DNA from: Promethearchaeota archaeon
GTDB taxonomy: Archaea; Asgardarchaeota; Lokiarchaeia; Sigynarchaeales; SOKP01
Assembly: GCA_016839845.1 (NCBI GenBank)
Contig: JAEOTL010000310.1
Coordinates: 1-25,794, forward strand
Reading direction: 5' to 3'
DNA: 25,794 bases
Positions 12,750 to 25,794 of this stretch are shown piece after piece. A program made the position numbers and the translations under genes. How positions within the stretch are numbered: the stretch's first letter is position 1; each line of letters begins with the position of its first letter. The notes below the pieces were generated by a model, which saw only the letters and a program-made list of their open reading frames with translations, searched no databases and was not told the origin of the DNA.

Positions 12750-14174
12750 CTAATCGAATTCAAGTAGTTCATACTTCATTGGTGTTTCCTTTCCCCGTTC
12801 TGCATAGAAGAAATCAGATTTCTCTGGATGTAAGTTCTTCTTTAAGAATGTTATAACTTCTAATCCCTTTGAAAATTCATCACATATGAATATATCAATA
12901 CTAATATATCCATGTTCTGGCCATGTGTGAATTGCAGCATGGCTTGTCTTCAATATTGCAACAGCACTAAATCCATAAGGTTGGTACTGATGCTGATATA
13001 CATCAAGAATCGTTAATCCTGCTGATATAAGAGAATCTAAAAAAATATTCTGAATTTTCTCATTCTCTAATAGAATTTCTTGTTCAGTAAAATGTAATTC
13101 TCCCATAAAGTGGAATCCAACAGGAAGATATTGAAATCTCTCCCTTGATTTAACTTCAGATGTGTAAATTGGACCAGTTGAAAGGTTAAAATTATATTTA
13201 CTACTCGGACTCTTTATTGAATGCAAGTAATAGAGATGGCTAAATTGCCCAATTATACTCGCACCTTTGTAATGGTTAAAATCAGGAATCATTTCGTTTA
13301 TAGTAAAGCCATGATCCAGTATTGAAAACTGCAATTTCTGCATTCCTTCGGGAGGTTTATTCCCAAAACTGAGAAGACAGGTCTTTCCAATTAATGGGTG
13401 AATTATGCCATCAATATTGATATTTGATTTTAAAACTTGACTTGCTCTTTTTAGAAATAATCTTAAACCTTCGTTGGTATAGGGAGGATCCATTACCACA
13501 ACATCAAATTTATTAAGGATTTCATTGGGGCATGGTTTTCTAAGATCATGGGGTAACACATTAAAATTGTTAATTGAGAGTTCCTCTACTGTTTTGGATA
13601 AATAGTCTAGAACTCTTTTATCTATATCCAGTACAGTAATCTCCTCTGCTAAATTAGTAAGTCCCACTGCCAGTGATATAAGATCATCGTCTCCTAAAAA
13701 AAGGATCTTTCTTCCCTCAATGTCTCCTTTTTTCAGTAAATAAAGTGTTTTTTTTATCACCGTTGAGAAGTCAGCATGGGATTGATCGAGAGCAAATTCT
13801 GGAGGAGGTCGGTTTTCGAGAAAGTTCTTAATAGTATGTAAATGTGAAAATTCAGTAGGTATTTCTTTAATGACACTTTCAAAGTCAACGGGGAGAGGAT
13901 CATATTCAAACTTTAAATTTAAGTTCGTCATTACCCATTCTCGCCCTTTCTTACCAAGAAAATTTTTTTTCTCAATAATACCCGCTTTAACCAGTTCATT
14001 TCTAGTAGCAGCAAGAGTGGGGATTGCGATACCTGTCTTTTGAGACACAATTTTGTTTTTCAAGGAAGGGAAGCGAAACATTGTCAATAGTACTAAGCGA
14101 ATCCCTTCAAAACCTTCAGCTAACTGCGCTCTTTCAGCTATTATTGTTAATTTTTTTTCTGCTTCTTCATTCAT
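12750..14174 (-). CDS. Fusion of branched-chain polyamine synthase (BpsA) and S-adenosylmethionine decarboxylase
   Basis: This 474-residue bifunctional enzyme should make and use aminopropyl groups for polyamines. Residues 20-85 form a winged-helix segment typical of BpsA. Residues 125-335 are the BpsA catalytic domain: DQSHADFST at 130-138, the GDDDL loop at 161-165, VLDID at 181-185 and DPPYT at 229-233. Residues 345-474 are a prokaryotic AdoMet decarboxylase. Its autocleavage serine is S411 (KTSHAAIHTWPE), with S403, H416 and C431 at the spacing of the proven catalytic residues in the Thermotoga enzyme; the usual Glu before the serine is Thr. Cleavage before S411 would yield a 410-residue chain carrying BpsA and a 64-residue pyruvoyl chain. 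BpsA makes N4-bis(aminopropyl)spermidine in thermophilic archaea. It heads a probable operon with DUF3795 and a HAD hydrolase. Confidence 0.93.
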   Translation of the reverse strand: MNEEAEKKLTIIAERAQLAEGFEGIRLVLLTMFRFPSLKNKIVSQKTGIAIPTLAATRNELVKAGIIEKKNFLGKKGREWVMTNLNLKFEYDPLPVDFESVIKEIPTEFSHLHTIKNFLENRPPPEFALDQSHADFSTVIKKTLYLLKKGDIEGRKILFLGDDDLISLAVGLTNLAEEITVLDIDKRVLDYLSKTVEELSINNFNVLPHDLRKPCPNEILNKFDVVVMDPPYTNEGLRLFLKRASQVLKSNINIDGIIHPLIGKTCLLSFGNKPPEGMQKLQFSILDHGFTINEMIPDFNHYKGASIIGQFSHLYYLHSIKSPSSKYNFNLSTGPIYTSEVKSRERFQYLPVGFHFMGELHFTEQEILLENEKIQNIFLDSLISAGLTILDVYQHQYQPYGFSAVAILKTSHAAIHTWPEHGYISIDIFICDEFSKGLEVITFLKKNLHPEKSDFFYAERGKETPMKYELLEFD

Positions 14175-19697: not shown

Positions 19698-19741
19698 AAA
19701 TGAGAGTATTCATAAAAAATTAATTGAAAACAGTCTTGAAA

Positions 19742-20308
19742 ATGACAGCAAAAATAGAGTACAAATTAAATCATAGAGAATTTGTAGTGTTGGGCTTAAT
19801 CGCAGAATTTCCTAGCCATGCCTATAGTATTAATCAAAGAATCGATGAGAGAGGAATGAGGGATTGGACAAGTATTGGAAAATCATCAATATATAATGAT
19901 TTAAGCAACCTAGAGGAAATTGGGTTAGTAAGTTTTCACACAGAAGAATTTGATAATCGCATACGAAAAGTTTATTCAATTACGGATTATGGTTCAAAAA
20001 TACTTATAACAAAAACCTATAATGTATTAAGAGAATTCATTGGAAGAAATGATGAAAATTTTTATGTAGCTTTTTCAATGCTCCCAATTCTGACAAAAGA
20101 ACAGCAAATTGAAGCGTTTACACATTCTTTTAATGCTATTGAAAGACATAAAAAAGAACTAGAGGATATGTTGGAAGAGAATTCCAAAATGCCTTTGAAT
20201 GTTAGGGGATTATTCTTGCACCCCATTAAAATCTTAGAAACTGACCTAGACTTCTTAAATTTCGTTTTAGAGGAAATTAAAAATAGAGGAGGAAAAGATG
20301 GCAAATAA
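19742..20308 (+). CDS. PadR-family transcriptional regulator
   Basis: This 188-residue protein has the PadR winged helix at residues 8-85. LNHREFVVLGLIAEFPSHAYSI starts it, SIGKSSIYNDLSNLEEIGLV is the recognition helix, and RKVYSITDYG forms the wing. The C-terminal 90 residues (MLPILTKEQQ, ERHKKELEDML, ILETDLDFLNFVLEEI) form the helical dimerisation part of PadR subfamily 2. PadR proteins are usually ligand-released repressors of drug-response genes. A TTG at 19724 is in frame but weak; the ATG at 19742 is chosen. The gene overlaps the BtrH-like gene by eleven bases, with that gene's ribosome site (GAGGAGGA) inside its 3' end, so it heads an operon. Confidence 0.9.
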   Translation: MTAKIEYKLNHREFVVLGLIAEFPSHAYSINQRIDERGMRDWTSIGKSSIYNDLSNLEEIGLVSFHTEEFDNRIRKVYSITDYGSKILITKTYNVLREFIGRNDENFYVAFSMLPILTKEQQIEAFTHSFNAIERHKKELEDMLEENSKMPLNVRGLFLHPIKILETDLDFLNFVLEEIKNRGGKDGK

Positions 20309-21431
20309 ACATATGGTAAAGGATTTTGTTCATAGAGTGGGTCATCACTGTGAGTCTTCTTCAATGCGAGATGTGTTTGAATTTTATGAATTCCCTATGT
20401 CGGAAGCAATGGCTTTTGGGCTTGACGCAACGATGGGATTCGGTTTTTTCGATACTACAAATAGTGTATCGTTTATTCCAGAATCAGATATTCCCTTTTT
20501 CCTTGGGGGTAAACAAGGAACTATCGTTCCTAATTCCTTAGCCTGTCGTTTATTAGGAATTACATTAAGAAAACAATCATTCACTAGTGCTGATAAAGCG
20601 TGGGAGGAGTCGAAGAAATTAATTGATCAAAATGTTCCCTTAATTCTTGAAATTGATTTAGGATTTTTACCGTATTTTGAGAGAGAAGGGGAGGTTCACT
20701 TTGGCGGTCATGCAATAACACTAGCAGGGTATGATGAGGAAAATGGGATCGCGTATGTAGGAGACACTGAACACGATGGATTTCAAGAAGTTACGATAAA
20801 ACAATTAAAGAAAGGTCGAAGTTCCGAATATGGACCTAAATTTATGCGCCCAAATAATGCCCAATTTTCTATGAAAAGAAGACCAGACGGAAAACATCCT
20901 CCTCTAGCTGCAAGCGTTAAGGTGGCGATCCAAAAAGTAGTAAATAATATGCTGCGTCCTTCGGTAAACAGTAGCGGAATTCAAGGCCTAAAATTGTTCG
21001 CGTCTTCAATCCCTCGATGGGATGAAAAGTTAATTGGGGAAACCAAGGATCCTGAAGGAAACTCAATTTCACGCTCAAGATTAATGTTTGAGTTAATGTA
21101 CGGCTATATAGAAACATGGGGAACCGGTGGGGCGTCCTTTAGAAATTTATACAATAGTTTTCTTAAAGAATTATTAACCCATCCTGAATTAAAAGAAGGG
21201 TCAAAAGCCTGGACTAAAGATGAATTTAAAATGATAGAAGATAGTATCCCGCTTATTGAAGACTCTGCCAAAAATTGGACGTCGATTGCAGAGACTTTAA
21301 ACCATGCTGCAATTGAATTCAATGATGATTGTTTAAGCAAAGTAAATTTGCATGAATTACAAAATTTAGCTCTTACCATCCTCTCAAAAGAAGAACAATT
21401 ATTCAAAAAATTATCAAAAATAAGGAACTAG
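20298..21431 (+). CDS. BtrH_N / DUF4872 domain protein (BtrH-type acyltransferase-like)
   Basis: This 377-residue protein fits the BtrH family. Residues 1-140 match the BtrH N-terminal domain: GHHCESSSMRDVFEFY with C18, then the SEAMAFGL region. A GGHAITLAGYDEENG segment with a likely catalytic His follows at about 145. This Cys-His order resembles a papain-like or C39 peptidase fold. The remainder, with DPEGNSISRSRLMFELMYG and a helical end, matches DUF4872. BtrH itself transfers an acyl side chain from a carrier protein onto the aminoglycoside ribostamycin. No carrier protein is seen here, so a transferase or amide hydrolase acting on another small molecule is plausible but unproven. It is translationally coupled to PadR, and DUF3795 starts ten bases downstream. 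Confidence 0.85.
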   Translation: MANKHMVKDFVHRVGHHCESSSMRDVFEFYEFPMSEAMAFGLDATMGFGFFDTTNSVSFIPESDIPFFLGGKQGTIVPNSLACRLLGITLRKQSFTSADKAWEESKKLIDQNVPLILEIDLGFLPYFEREGEVHFGGHAITLAGYDEENGIAYVGDTEHDGFQEVTIKQLKKGRSSEYGPKFMRPNNAQFSMKRRPDGKHPPLAASVKVAIQKVVNNMLRPSVNSSGIQGLKLFASSIPRWDEKLIGETKDPEGNSISRSRLMFELMYGYIETWGTGGASFRNLYNSFLKELLTHPELKEGSKAWTKDEFKMIEDSIPLIEDSAKNWTSIAETLNHAAIEFNDDCLSKVNLHELQNLALTILSKEEQLFKKLSKIRN

Positions 21432-22577: not shown

Positions 22578-25073
22578 ATGGATGAGATAAAAGTCGTGGG
22601 AGCTAGGATTCATAATTTAAAGAATATTAACGTTAATATTCCGAAAGGAAAGATGATTCTTATTACGGGAGTGTCTGGTTCCGGTAAATCAAGCCTAGCT
22701 TTTGATATAATATTTGATGAAGGGATGAATAGATATCTTCAGTCAATTGGTTTTCCCCCGAAATTTGAAGATGAAAAACCCTTCGATTTAATTGAAGGTT
22801 TAAGTCCGACTGTTGCAGTAGAGCAGAGAACCACCCGCATTTTTAATCCTCGTTCCACAGTAGGGACTAGAACAGGTATCTACGGGATGTTAAGGATGCT
22901 CTATGTAACTGAAGGTGTTTTAATTTGCCCGATATGTAAGGAACCTGTAAATGATAATCTTGAATGCGACCTATGTGGTATGGTTATAGAGAGACTTCAG
23001 ATAAAGCATTTTTCATTTAATGAACCCTCAGGAATGTGTTTGGAGTGCAGAGGAAGAGGATATACATCACATATTTCAGAAGATCTGATTATCCCCGACG
23101 ATAATAAAAATATTATTGAGATTACGAAAGCAGGCTCAGCAGTCTTCGCAGATCAATTAAAATTGGTACAACAATTACCAAACTTTTATGATTTCGATAT
23201 AAATACTCCTTTTAGGGATTTATCAGAGGATATAAAAAAAATGTTCCTATATGGTAGTGGTAAAACACTAGATTTTAAATGGGAGTCTAAAAGGTTTTCG
23301 GGTAAATTAGAATATGAATATGAAGGAATAATACCCCATATTAAACGGGCATTAGCAGAAAGCAAAAGTGCCTATAGAAGAAATAGAATAAATAATTACA
23401 TGATAAAATCAAAATGTGAAGAGTGTGAGGGATATAGGGTAAATGAACAGGCTCGAAGTATCAAGCTCGGAGATAAACATATTGGCGAATTAGCTTTGAT
23501 GACTATTGATAATTTTATCGACTTTCTAGATCATCTTTCAGAAAATAATGTCCAGAGTCCTCAAGGTAATTCTATAGTAGACAGTTTAAAGGAAGGATTA
23601 AGCCATATGGCAGATGTAGGTTTATCATATTTACATTTGAATCGATCACTTCCAACTCTGAGTGGAGGAGAGCTCCAAAGATTATCACTTATGACTCATT
23701 TAGACGCTGGCCTTGATTCCCTCATTTATATATTAGATGAACCAAGTATGAGTTTACATGAAAAAGAAAAAGATTCTTTAATTAAAATATTACTAAGGCT
23801 TAAAGACTTAGGAAATACTGTTATTGTTGTTGAACATGATAAGCGGTTTATTGAAATTGCGGATGAAGTAATTGATATAGGCCCTGGAGCGGGAATCAAT
23901 GGGGGAAATATAGTTTATCAAGGATTACTTAGAGCGATCAAATCAATTAAGGAATCCCATACTGGTCAGTTCTTAGCGGGTATTGTATCACTTCCTAAAA
24001 AATCTAAGGAAGATCAAAGGACTATTAATAATACAACCAAATTCATTACTCTCAAAAATGCTAAGACCAATAATTTGAAGAATGTAACATTAAAGATTCC
24101 TTTAGGGATGATGGTGGGGTTATGTGGGGTATCAGGGTCCGGAAAAAGTTCATTGATTTTGGACACCTTGGTTCCTTTATTAACCCCCTATTACAAGAGA
24201 GGAGCTGATTTGCCCAAAAAGAAAGCAAATAATAACAGCAATAATGAAGAAAATGGAGATGAACTGCTCGAATATTCTGGTACTGTCGAAGGATGGGAAT
24301 ATATCGATAAATTAGTAGTAGTAAGTCAAAAACCGATTTCAAGAGTAAGAACTTCCACTCCTAGTTCGTTTATAGGAATTTGGGATAAGATTAGGAATGT
24401 TTTCGCTAAAACCCCAGAAGCCAAGAAAAGAAAATATGCAGCAGGTCATTTCTCCTACAATTCGGATAAGGGAAAATGTCCCTCTTGTAAAGGGCAAGGA
24501 GTACAAGATCTTCAGATATCCTTTCTTAGCAGCTTTGAAATACCATGCAAAGAATGCAAAGGCTCAAGATACCTACCCGAAATTTTAGAGGTTAAATATA
24601 AAGGAAAATCAATAACAGATGTACTTAATATGACTGTTACAGAAGCTTTGGAGCTATTCAAATCACAAAGTAGTGTAGCCAACGTCTTAAAGATATTGGA
24701 TGAAATTGGTATGGGATACATAACATTAGGACAACCGGCCCCAACTCTTAGTGGGGGTGAAGCCCAGAGAATAAAATTAGCAAAAGAACTAGGCAAAACC
24801 CGGAAGGGAAATTCACTATATATATTGGATGAGCCTACAGTAAGTTTATCATTCTATGATGCTGTGAAACTCATGGAATTGCTTGAACAACTCGTACAAG
24901 AAGGAAATAGCGTAATAATTATAGAACACGACCCAGACATCCTCGAGTATACCGATTATCTTATTGAATTAGGTCCTGAGGGTGGCCCTCGAGGAGGAGA
25001 GGTAATTGCGATTGGAACTCCTGAAGAAATTAAAAAGAATAAAAATTCCAATACGGGTTTTTATTTAAATTAA
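22578..25073 (+). CDS. UvrA-like double ABC ATPase (copy 1), probably not canonical UvrA
   Basis: This 831-residue protein has the two-ATPase plan of UvrA. The first half has Walker A GVSGSGKSS (31-39), a four-Cys unit CPIC..CDLC (117-133), CLECRGRGY (154-162), signature LSGGELQR (361-368) and Walker B ILDEPS (385-390). The second half has Walker A GVSGSGKSS (517-525), zinc segments CPSCKGQG and CKECKGSRY, LSGGEAQR (724-731) and ILDEPT (749-754). It is about 110 residues shorter than typical UvrA, and both D-loops are altered: EPSMSLH and EPTVSLS where EPSIGLH and EPTTGLH are usual. An Asn-rich insert lies at 551-560. No uvrB or uvrC is nearby. UvrA-like relatives such as DrrC give resistance to DNA-binding drugs, which suits the PadR-led setting. 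A GGAGGGGAGGAG site precedes the ATG. Confidence 0.9.
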   Translation: MDEIKVVGARIHNLKNINVNIPKGKMILITGVSGSGKSSLAFDIIFDEGMNRYLQSIGFPPKFEDEKPFDLIEGLSPTVAVEQRTTRIFNPRSTVGTRTGIYGMLRMLYVTEGVLICPICKEPVNDNLECDLCGMVIERLQIKHFSFNEPSGMCLECRGRGYTSHISEDLIIPDDNKNIIEITKAGSAVFADQLKLVQQLPNFYDFDINTPFRDLSEDIKKMFLYGSGKTLDFKWESKRFSGKLEYEYEGIIPHIKRALAESKSAYRRNRINNYMIKSKCEECEGYRVNEQARSIKLGDKHIGELALMTIDNFIDFLDHLSENNVQSPQGNSIVDSLKEGLSHMADVGLSYLHLNRSLPTLSGGELQRLSLMTHLDAGLDSLIYILDEPSMSLHEKEKDSLIKILLRLKDLGNTVIVVEHDKRFIEIADEVIDIGPGAGINGGNIVYQGLLRAIKSIKESHTGQFLAGIVSLPKKSKEDQRTINNTTKFITLKNAKTNNLKNVTLKIPLGMMVGLCGVSGSGKSSLILDTLVPLLTPYYKRGADLPKKKANNNSNNEENGDELLEYSGTVEGWEYIDKLVVVSQKPISRVRTSTPSSFIGIWDKIRNVFAKTPEAKKRKYAAGHFSYNSDKGKCPSCKGQGVQDLQISFLSSFEIPCKECKGSRYLPEILEVKYKGKSITDVLNMTVTEALELFKSQSSVANVLKILDEIGMGYITLGQPAPTLSGGEAQRIKLAKELGKTRKGNSLYILDEPTVSLSFYDAVKLMELLEQLVQEGNSVIIIEHDPDILEYTDYLIELGPEGGPRGGEVIAIGTPEEIKKNKNSNTGFYLN

Positions 25074-25139
25074 ATTTACTTAACTCAATAGTTAGAAAGA
25101 CGTAAAAATAATTTTCAACATAAAAAAAAAAATAAATCA

Positions 25140-25794
25140 ATGGATATCGAGATAAAAGGAGCAACAGAAAATAACCTTAAGAACATCGACGTTACATTTT
25201 CCGGTGGCTTAACGGTCGTAACCGGAATATCAGGGAGTGGAAAATCTTCACTTGTGTTCGATACTCTATATCATGAGTCAAATCGTCGATTGATCGAATT
25301 ATTCGGCTATAGTCGAAAATGGGCGAGTCAGAGATCCTCTTATAAACTTGCTCCAGCTAAAGTAGGGTCAATAAATGGATTAGGTCCCGCAGTTGCGGTT
25401 GGACAGAATTTACTAAATAGAAACCCCGGCTCAACTTTAGCTACCGCATCAGGATTGCATCCCTTATTTAGATTGCTCTATGCAAGGTTTGGTATAAGAA
25501 AATGTCCTAATTGTGGTGCCGATGTTAATATCTTAACCCATGATGAAATACTTAATTATCTTGTTAGCCTGGCTCAGGAAAAATCTATTGTTGTGTATTC
25601 CCAACTCGTAAATAACGCATTTGGAAGTCACAAAACTTTACTTCATCTTTTATCAGAGCAATTTGCCTTGAAAGATCTGTATATAGATAATAAAGAATGG
25701 GATGGTTCTGAATTAGATCCTAATAAACTTCATAATATCTTAATAAAATTAGCACATATTGATAATTCAGCTTCAATTGAATCTATACGTGAGA
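25140..25794 (+). CDS. UvrA-like ABC ATPase (copy 2), 5' part, truncated by the window edge
   Basis: The frame opens with ATG at 25140 and stays open to the last base, giving 218 residues. It starts MDIEIKGATENNLKNIDV, then has Walker A GISGSGKSSLVFDTLYHE (about 30-47). GLGPAVAVGQNLLNRNPGSTLATASGL follows in two overlapping parts, matching the UvrA region that reads as VEQ..NPRSTVGT in copy 1. A CPNCGADVN zinc-type pair comes next. It is clearly a distant paralogue of the preceding gene, not a fragment of it. The 66-base gap holds an A-rich tract but no clear TATA element, so co-transcription with copy 1 is possible. Length, second ATPase half and zinc sites cannot be judged. Confidence 0.9.
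   Translation, partial: MDIEIKGATENNLKNIDVTFSGGLTVVTGISGSGKSSLVFDTLYHESNRRLIELFGYSRKWASQRSSYKLAPAKVGSINGLGPAVAVGQNLLNRNPGSTLATASGLHPLFRLLYARFGIRKCPNCGADVNILTHDEILNYLVSLAQEKSIVVYSQLVNNAFGSHKTLLHLLSEQFALKDLYIDNKEWDGSELDPNKLHNILIKLAHIDNSASIESIRE

Follow-up and report, generated by a model that had tools for sequence, protein, structure and literature searches.

On the minus strand of the 25,794 nucleotides analysed here (contig JAEOTL010000310.1 of the Promethearchaeota archaeon assembly GCA_016839845.1, in the following the window), we found a gene that joins a domain of the branched-chain polyamine synthase (BpsA) family to an S-adenosylmethionine (AdoMet) decarboxylase in one chain. This fusion architecture is confirmed as genuine; intact copies are widespread in two groups of Asgard archaea, the Lokiarchaeia and the Hodarchaeales. 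Judging from the sequences, we give a probability of about 0.55 to the reading that the protein acts there as a self-supplying bifunctional aminopropyltransferase, which most likely replaces spermidine synthase, because in almost all fusion-bearing genomes neither a further AdoMet decarboxylase (AdoMetDC) nor a spermidine synthase can be recognised.

The gene forms a single frame of 474 amino acids with an ATG start and zero internal stops; the plus strand of the same interval, 12750-14174, contains numerous stops. The protein is matched far over the cut-offs by Pfam BpsA_C (residues 113-327, E 1e-44) and Pfam AdoMet_dc (residues 355-461, E 1.1e-27), and NCBIfam TIGR03330 scores 91.9 bits (cut-off 75.65). 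The Spermine_synth match reaches only 21 bits (cut-off 22.9). In the N-terminal domain a PF01861 match over the cut-off coincides with the BpsA fold, which is the best fold for the predicted structure by 7 Z units. A preliminary description of this DNA, made from the letters alone, had proposed one frame joining the two domains, and the minus-strand frame together with both Pfam matches bears this out. The motif positions that it gave, GDDD 161-164, DPPYT 229-233, S403, T410-S411, H416 and C431, are correct, and the predicted alpha chain, residues 411-474, indeed counts 64 residues.

Among the candidates scored in a first homologue search, 415 are homologues; 120 of these are listed, and all 120 have both domains. 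With further searches the listed homologues come to 202 distinct proteins, and the search for two-domain proteins and their taxonomy, which had been suggested at the outset, leads to 195 of them. Their sources carry the names Promethearchaeota, Lokiarchaeota, Hodarchaeota/Hodarchaeales, Heimdallarchaeota, Hermodarchaeota (one) and Thorarchaeota (a few), and many rows are nameless. A contig scan gave 26 fusion loci, all titled Lokiarchaeota or Lokiarchaeia. When 227 Asgard genomes were scanned, 115 matched the alignment, and 39 were found to carry the fusion, plus one partial case (G052). By labels taken from record titles and protein names, the 39 comprise 30 Loki-like genomes (G121 is partial at a contig end and G185 more divergent) and 9 of the Hodar type; the frame of G060 has a TGA near its start. 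Motif classes were assigned by eye, and the class counts below omit G052, G090 and 14 of the 115 matching genomes with SpeD-only or short PF01861 relatives (G014, G039, G040, G042, G098, G152, G164, G169, G180, G186, G187, G189, G190 and G202).

A stop or frameshift between residues 335 and 350, named at the outset as what would undo the fusion, is very unlikely to hide here, since the frame recurs intact in many separate copies, twice on a single-contig chromosome; the same copies led us to reject a pseudogene or artefact. That assembly or annotation has wrongly joined two neighbouring genes is next to impossible in our view: an unfused bpsA-speD tandem does occur in a relative (locus L084), but the two-domain homologues come from many assemblies and from 39 genomes, with a conserved tether motif and the same junction.

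Residue conservation was read from an alignment of 193 proteins, in which 121 Loki-type (the window protein and the 120 listed of 415 homologues) and 67 Hodar-type sequences, some of them partial, were counted; P0188-P0193 were excluded, and P0194-P0202 stand outside the counts as well. GDDD, DPPYT, IYT, T410, S411 and C431 are each present in 121/121 Loki-type sequences, E340 and H416 in 120/121 each, and position 403 is Ser in 117/121 and Thr in the remaining 4. GDDD and the counterpart of S411 are each kept in all 65 readable Hodar-type sequences. The residue preceding the cleaved Ser is Thr in every Loki-type sequence and Glu in 65/65 readable Hodar-type ones. P399 and P419, two central-region candidates for the position that marks an AdoMetDC versus a pyruvoyl arginine decarboxylase derived from it (SpeDA), are both invariant among the 121. 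We take the counterpart of S55 of Thermotoga maritima to be a further conserved AdoMetDC position. The AdoMetDC residues named in the available part of PMC10407285, S63, H68 and C83, have their counterparts in the fusion. With TIGR03330 over its cut-off and the catalytic positions in place, the decarboxylase appears competent, as the preliminary description had held, and after the predicted autocleavage the BpsA part would remain with the beta chain. The very divergent P0202 (455 amino acids, both domains) has the cleavage site TSN, not TSH.

The BpsA part deviates more clearly from its models. According to a 2026 review (PMC12979288, in the part available), the aminopropyl group of decarboxylated AdoMet (dcAdoMet) is held in BpsA of Thermococcus kodakarensis (Tk-BpsA) by Asp159 and Asp160 of GDDD and carried by five acidic residues at 339-345; the residues that act on the acceptor are Asp225, Glu259, Tyr290 and Tyr316. 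By alignment, the fusion retains GDDD, the Asp of DPP (D229) and the Tyr of FN.Y (Y302). Compared with the two solved enzymes (EC 2.5.1.128), from T. kodakarensis and Thermus thermophilus (Tt), it has Tyr232 in DPPYT where both have Glu (DPPET and DPVEG), so that the acidic residue after DPP/DPV is missing, and in chained sequence alignments it has Pro274 where Tt has Glu and Tk has Glu259. It further differs from them in being joined to AdoMetDC and in its C-terminal acidic cluster, which is absent as such: the tail reads IYT[SA]E with E340 as the one conserved acid, in a tether that is otherwise variable. BpsA_C aligns over 4-208 of its 243 positions, the C-terminal part of the domain being altered. 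The claim of a complete BpsA domain thus stands as to family, by BpsA_C and the fold, and is too strong as to completeness. With other residues in place of the two Glu that the solved BpsAs share, and with a reduced acidic carrier tail, the tetra-amine product foreseen for the fusion is doubtful too. In P0193 a PF01861 domain is fused to one that matches PF13640, of the 2-oxoglutarate oxygenase type.

Hodar-type fusions mostly have IYTFDE at the tail or tether position, unfused relatives of the Y type mostly IYTG[DE] or similar, and some classical Asgard BpsAs keep the acidic cluster, for example in the tail EDIYVDEE. The predicted model aligns to Tk residue 349; the Tk tail is not itself sequence-aligned. 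Because related IYT motifs stand at the same place in the unfused Y-type relatives, the inter-domain tether looks like a remodelled aminopropyl-carrier tail of BpsA and not like new sequence.

The genome context was followed in 46 genomes, the 39 with the fusion and 7 with adjacent unfused pairs. AdoMetDC is present in all 46, in single copy in 45, and the fusion is the only AdoMetDC in 38/39 fusion genomes (G059 has two). We called a spermidine synthase (SpeE) at a TIGR00417 score of at least 100 bits, a threshold of our own; the model matches in 41/227 Asgard genomes, with at least 100 bits in 19 and over the strict model cut-off in 5, and the same search is positive in 10 of 14 control genomes, three of them archaea. 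Only 3/39 fusion genomes pass, namely G059, G129 and G007 (in a 564-amino-acid frame), together with 0/20 genomes of the unfused Y type with GDDD and 0/23 of the Y type with GDSD or GDGD. Of the 10 genomes with classical DPP[ED]/DPLE/DPSE enzymes 9 pass (not G167), as do 7/7 of the divergent DS[SP]H group. A role in branching spermidine would therefore be without an evident substrate source in 36/39 fusion genomes. In G129, a Loki bin, a spermidine-synthase-like gene lies beside another protein with GDDDL and DPPYD (L096:2621-4647), which represents either a second polyamine operon or contamination.

Weaker candidates for a spermidine route were also inspected. Within the 46 genomes, Spermine_synth matches exceed 37 bits only in G059, G129 and G007; two of the weak ones were examined and rejected, that of G003 being a general methyltransferase instead and that of G185 scoring 50.7, below the 260 that the model for polyamine aminopropyltransferase requires. 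Carboxynorspermidine decarboxylase (TIGR01047) is found over the cut-off in 0/46 genomes, with some match at E 0.001 in 29/46. The carboxyspermidine route was dismissed. Of the weak matches two were examined: that of G004 is a LysA over its cut-off beside DapF, and that of G051 is LysA-like under the cut-off. For all three pyridoxal phosphate (PLP) decarboxylases examined, LysA or LysA-like is the best-scoring identity.

Whether the N-terminal domain uses dcAdoMet may be reflected in its GDDD motif. The 23 genomes G015-G037 hold a Y-type enzyme and no AdoMetDC match, and here the motif reads GDSD in 22 and GDGD in 1; G090, with GDYD, is likewise without AdoMetDC. Unfused Y-type enzymes with GDDD are accompanied by AdoMetDC in 17/20 genomes. 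In these sequences the Asp that orients dcAdoMet in Tk-BpsA appears tied to the presence of the donor, and its loss where AdoMetDC is absent supports dcAdoMet use by the Y-type enzymes with GDDD. The BpsA-like clade of G015-G037 (L109, L111-L114, L138, L142-L158) has probably changed its activity.

Concerning the origin of the fusion, the tree of the BpsA domain was built from 70 of 90 rows by a quick method without bootstrap, after removal of 20 that were partial, near-duplicate or of the divergent DS[SP]H group. In this transferase tree, the unfused relatives G061 and G062 fall into one group with the fusions (99 in the Shimodaira-Hasegawa-like approximate likelihood ratio test, SH-aLRT); in the decarboxylase tree only G062 joins them (97/98), and the G061 decarboxylase lies outside. 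G061 and G062 are long branches of unsure placement. Both trees fit one origin of the fusion, which is supported but not proven. In G062, which branches near the fusions and carries reverse gyrase, bpsA and then speD lie unfused on the same strand with an 18-base gap, in the order of the fusion (L084:48-1601). This tandem could be a pre-fusion state, with the fusion arising by stop loss; alternatively, the two genes may have come apart later. Seven other genomes have the speD gene immediately upstream of bpsA.

Reverse gyrase, called by TIGR01054 over its cut-off, is present in 18/227 genomes: in 0/39 fusion genomes, 1/20 of the unfused Y type with GDDD (G062), 10/10 of the classical type and 3/7 of the DS[SP]H group. 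From this lack and from their lineage, the fusion hosts are probably mesophiles. The available parts of PMC12175538 and PMC12979288 state that bpsA is absent from mesophiles and confined to thermophiles, which would need revising if the fusion domain counts as BpsA; otherwise the domain is a sister type.

On the preferred reading, the C-terminal AdoMetDC would cleave itself between T410 and S411, form the pyruvoyl group and decarboxylate AdoMet, and the N-terminal domain would hold the resulting dcAdoMet through GDDD and transfer its aminopropyl group to an amine. Putrescine or agmatine would give spermidine or N1-aminopropylagmatine; branched products would be possible and are not required. 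In favour of this reading, agmatinase-family genes are present in 46/46 genomes and the PF01862 arginine decarboxylase in 24/29 of the Loki type, and AdoMetDC fusions with SpeE-family transferases are proven to be bifunctional. The tether would be the remnant of the aminopropyl-carrier tail with its one nearly invariant acid, so that the segment handing over the aminopropyl group would double as the link to the donor-making domain, and channelling of dcAdoMet between the domains is plausible. Both enzyme activities, the acceptor, the carrier role of E340 and the channelling are what we infer from sequence and genome content; acceptor specificity cannot be read from the fusion motifs. As a tentative extension, the DPPYT type might represent a second, SpeE-independent class of spermidine-forming aminopropyltransferases in non-hyperthermophilic Asgards, in which a carrier tail turned tether would allow a covalent relay from AdoMet to spermidine in one chain.

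The protein might instead be a true branched-chain polyamine synthase that is fed by its own AdoMetDC and converts spermidine, or homospermidine from a second deoxyhypusine-synthase-like protein, into branched tetra- and penta-amines. We regard this as unlikely: the Glu of DPPET/DPVEG is Tyr in 121/121 Loki-type and 67/67 Hodar-type sequences, Tk Glu259 aligns to Pro274, and the five-acid tail is down to one acid in the Loki type. Neither do the hosts resemble those of the solved enzymes, as 36/39 are without a SpeE of 100 bits and all are without reverse gyrase over the cut-off, whereas branched-chain polyamines are described as thermophile products in the available part of PMC12979288. Homospermidine synthesis is unproven. 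A second deoxyhypusine-synthase-like gene lies within 440 bases of the pyruvoyl arginine decarboxylase in 21/24 genomes (L087:3914-5785, L092), and its product could be a homospermidine-type synthase; that of G002 scores under the cut-off of every NCBIfam model matched.

Quite improbable to us is an AdoMet-dependent methyltransferase as the N-terminal domain, with the AdoMetDC fusion serving regulation or another pathway. Its argument is the DPPY motif, which we take to be of the amino-methyltransferase type; yet GDDD is invariant in the fusions and disappears where there is no AdoMetDC, a dcAdoMet user would be expected to be fused with AdoMetDC or encoded next to it, and BpsA leads the folds by 7 Z units. 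Still less credible is a decarboxylase domain that has become a pyruvoyl arginine or ornithine decarboxylase (SpeDA or SpeDC) and makes agmatine or putrescine. Such changes are frequent, according to the part of PMC10407285 available, and the 9 Hodar-type genomes yielded no PF01862 arginine decarboxylase; but the domain is the only AdoMetDC homologue in 38/39 genomes, its GDDD partner domain would depend on dcAdoMet, and both candidate prolines of the central region are kept. Moreover, PF01862 is already present in 24 of the 46 genomes, all of the Loki type (24/29), and two Hodar-type genomes examined, G050 and G051, have a PLP decarboxylase of the Orn/DAP/Arg family, LysA-like under the cut-off, between agmatinase and deoxyhypusine synthase (L162:1551-2837, L163:1590-2870), a candidate arginine decarboxylase.

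Several observations weigh against the bifunctional aminopropyltransferase that we prefer. Spermine_synth does match in 19/46 genomes at E 0.001, and in 14/46 over its low cut-off of 22.9 bits. Use of putrescine would be a change, because Tk-BpsA works weakly on diamines (PMC12979288, available part), and PF01862 was found neither in any of the 9 Hodar-type genomes nor in G185. T410 replaces the Glu that precedes the cleaved Ser in T. maritima and the Hodar type, in all Loki-type sequences counted. Three Y-type genomes with GDDD (G093, G096, G097) show no AdoMetDC, and the correlation between GDSD and missing AdoMetDC is one clade plus one case (G090), not many independent events. Agmatinase-family and deoxyhypusine synthase genes are present in 46/46 genomes, and the two matches are 112-117 bases apart in 29/29 Loki-type genomes and 329-1717 bases apart in 9/9 of the Hodar type; in G185 they are not close. 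In the Loki type the agmatinase lies directly upstream (L088:3114-4981), as in Haloferax, where a pair of this kind is presumed to yield deoxyhypusine from agmatine, with no spermidine involved (PMC5178350, available part). By analogy, this suggests agmatine-based hypusination in Asgards. Because of this pairing, a need for spermidine does not follow from deoxyhypusine synthase, and we dropped hypusination as a proof of it.

The features of the fused gene are collected in the table. No polyamine-related neighbours of the fusion gene were seen, and the most widely shared neighbour family occurs in 10/26 Loki loci. In the window, 19724-21431 holds a PadR-like regulator and a BtrH_N/DUF4872 protein, both with relatives close to the fusion, in 9 and 8 of the 26 Loki loci respectively. 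The interval 22578-25793 holds a UvrA-like ATP-binding cassette ATPase (UvrA_DNA-bind) and, after it, another similar frame that continues beyond the window.

Table. Features of the fused gene, in positions of the window.
Feature	Position	Strand	Basis
Fused gene, BpsA-family domain + AdoMet decarboxylase domain	12750..14174	minus	474 aa, profiles, model
N-terminal helical region of BpsA part, residues 1-95	13890..14174	minus	predicted helices; winged-helix-like by HTH_24, 15.5 bits, under cut-off 21.9
Catalytic BpsA-family domain, residues 96-334	13173..13889	minus	
GDDD 161-164, counterpart of Tk-BpsA Gly157-Asp160	13683..13694	minus	alignment; role from PMC12979288 (available part)
DPPYT 229-233; DPPET in Tk, DPVEG in Tt BpsA	13476..13490	minus	alignment
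Inter-domain tether, residues 335-349, PIYT[SA]E.K motif, at place of BpsA acidic carrier tail	13128..13172	minus	local pLDDT (predicted local distance difference test) 57-72
Class 1b AdoMet decarboxylase domain, residues 350-465	12780..13127	minus	
Predicted autocleavage site T410-S411; S411 would become pyruvoyl group	12942..12947	minus	conservation; role of T. maritima S63, PMC10407285 (available part)
Predicted alpha chain, residues 411-474 (64 aa), contains H416 + C431	12753..12944	minus	sequence

Fusions of AdoMetDC with an aminopropyltransferase of the SpeE family are known from Pelagibacter and other bacteria, where both activities were shown in E. coli deletion strains, and human spermine synthase derived from fusions of this type (PMC11107197 and PMC12803844, available parts). 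They likewise unite a donor-making decarboxylase and an aminopropyltransferase in one chain, but have the AdoMetDC at the N-terminus; here the order is opposite, the transferase belongs to the BpsA family, and the named hosts are archaea. SpeD1-SpeD2 fusions also contain a self-cleaving AdoMetDC, with a second SpeD homologue as partner; the available part of PMC10407285, which speaks of two-SpeD-domain fusions and makes no mention of BpsA, says that no SpeD fusion was found among extant archaea. Compared with the class 1b AdoMetDC (SpeD) of T. maritima, the domain here is the C-terminal part of a larger chain, with Thr in place of Glu before the cleaved Ser in the Loki type. We found no description of a BpsA-AdoMetDC fusion in the literature searched, which covers open-licence papers and leaves preprints and most subscription papers outside its scope. 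The suspicion that this fusion is new therefore holds within that literature, and the arrangement is common (39/227 genomes). Asgard archaea are regarded as the closest known relatives of eukaryotes, and their polyamine synthesis is not covered in the literature searched here.

In summary, if the fused protein is the self-supplying aminopropyltransferase that we propose, one gene would suffice to lead from AdoMet to an aminopropylated polyamine, which would account for the lack of a recognisable spermidine synthase in most fusion genomes. BpsA-family enzymes would then leave the thermophiles-only box in which the available parts of PMC12175538 and PMC12979288 place them, and one more transferase family would be added to the known AdoMetDC fusions.
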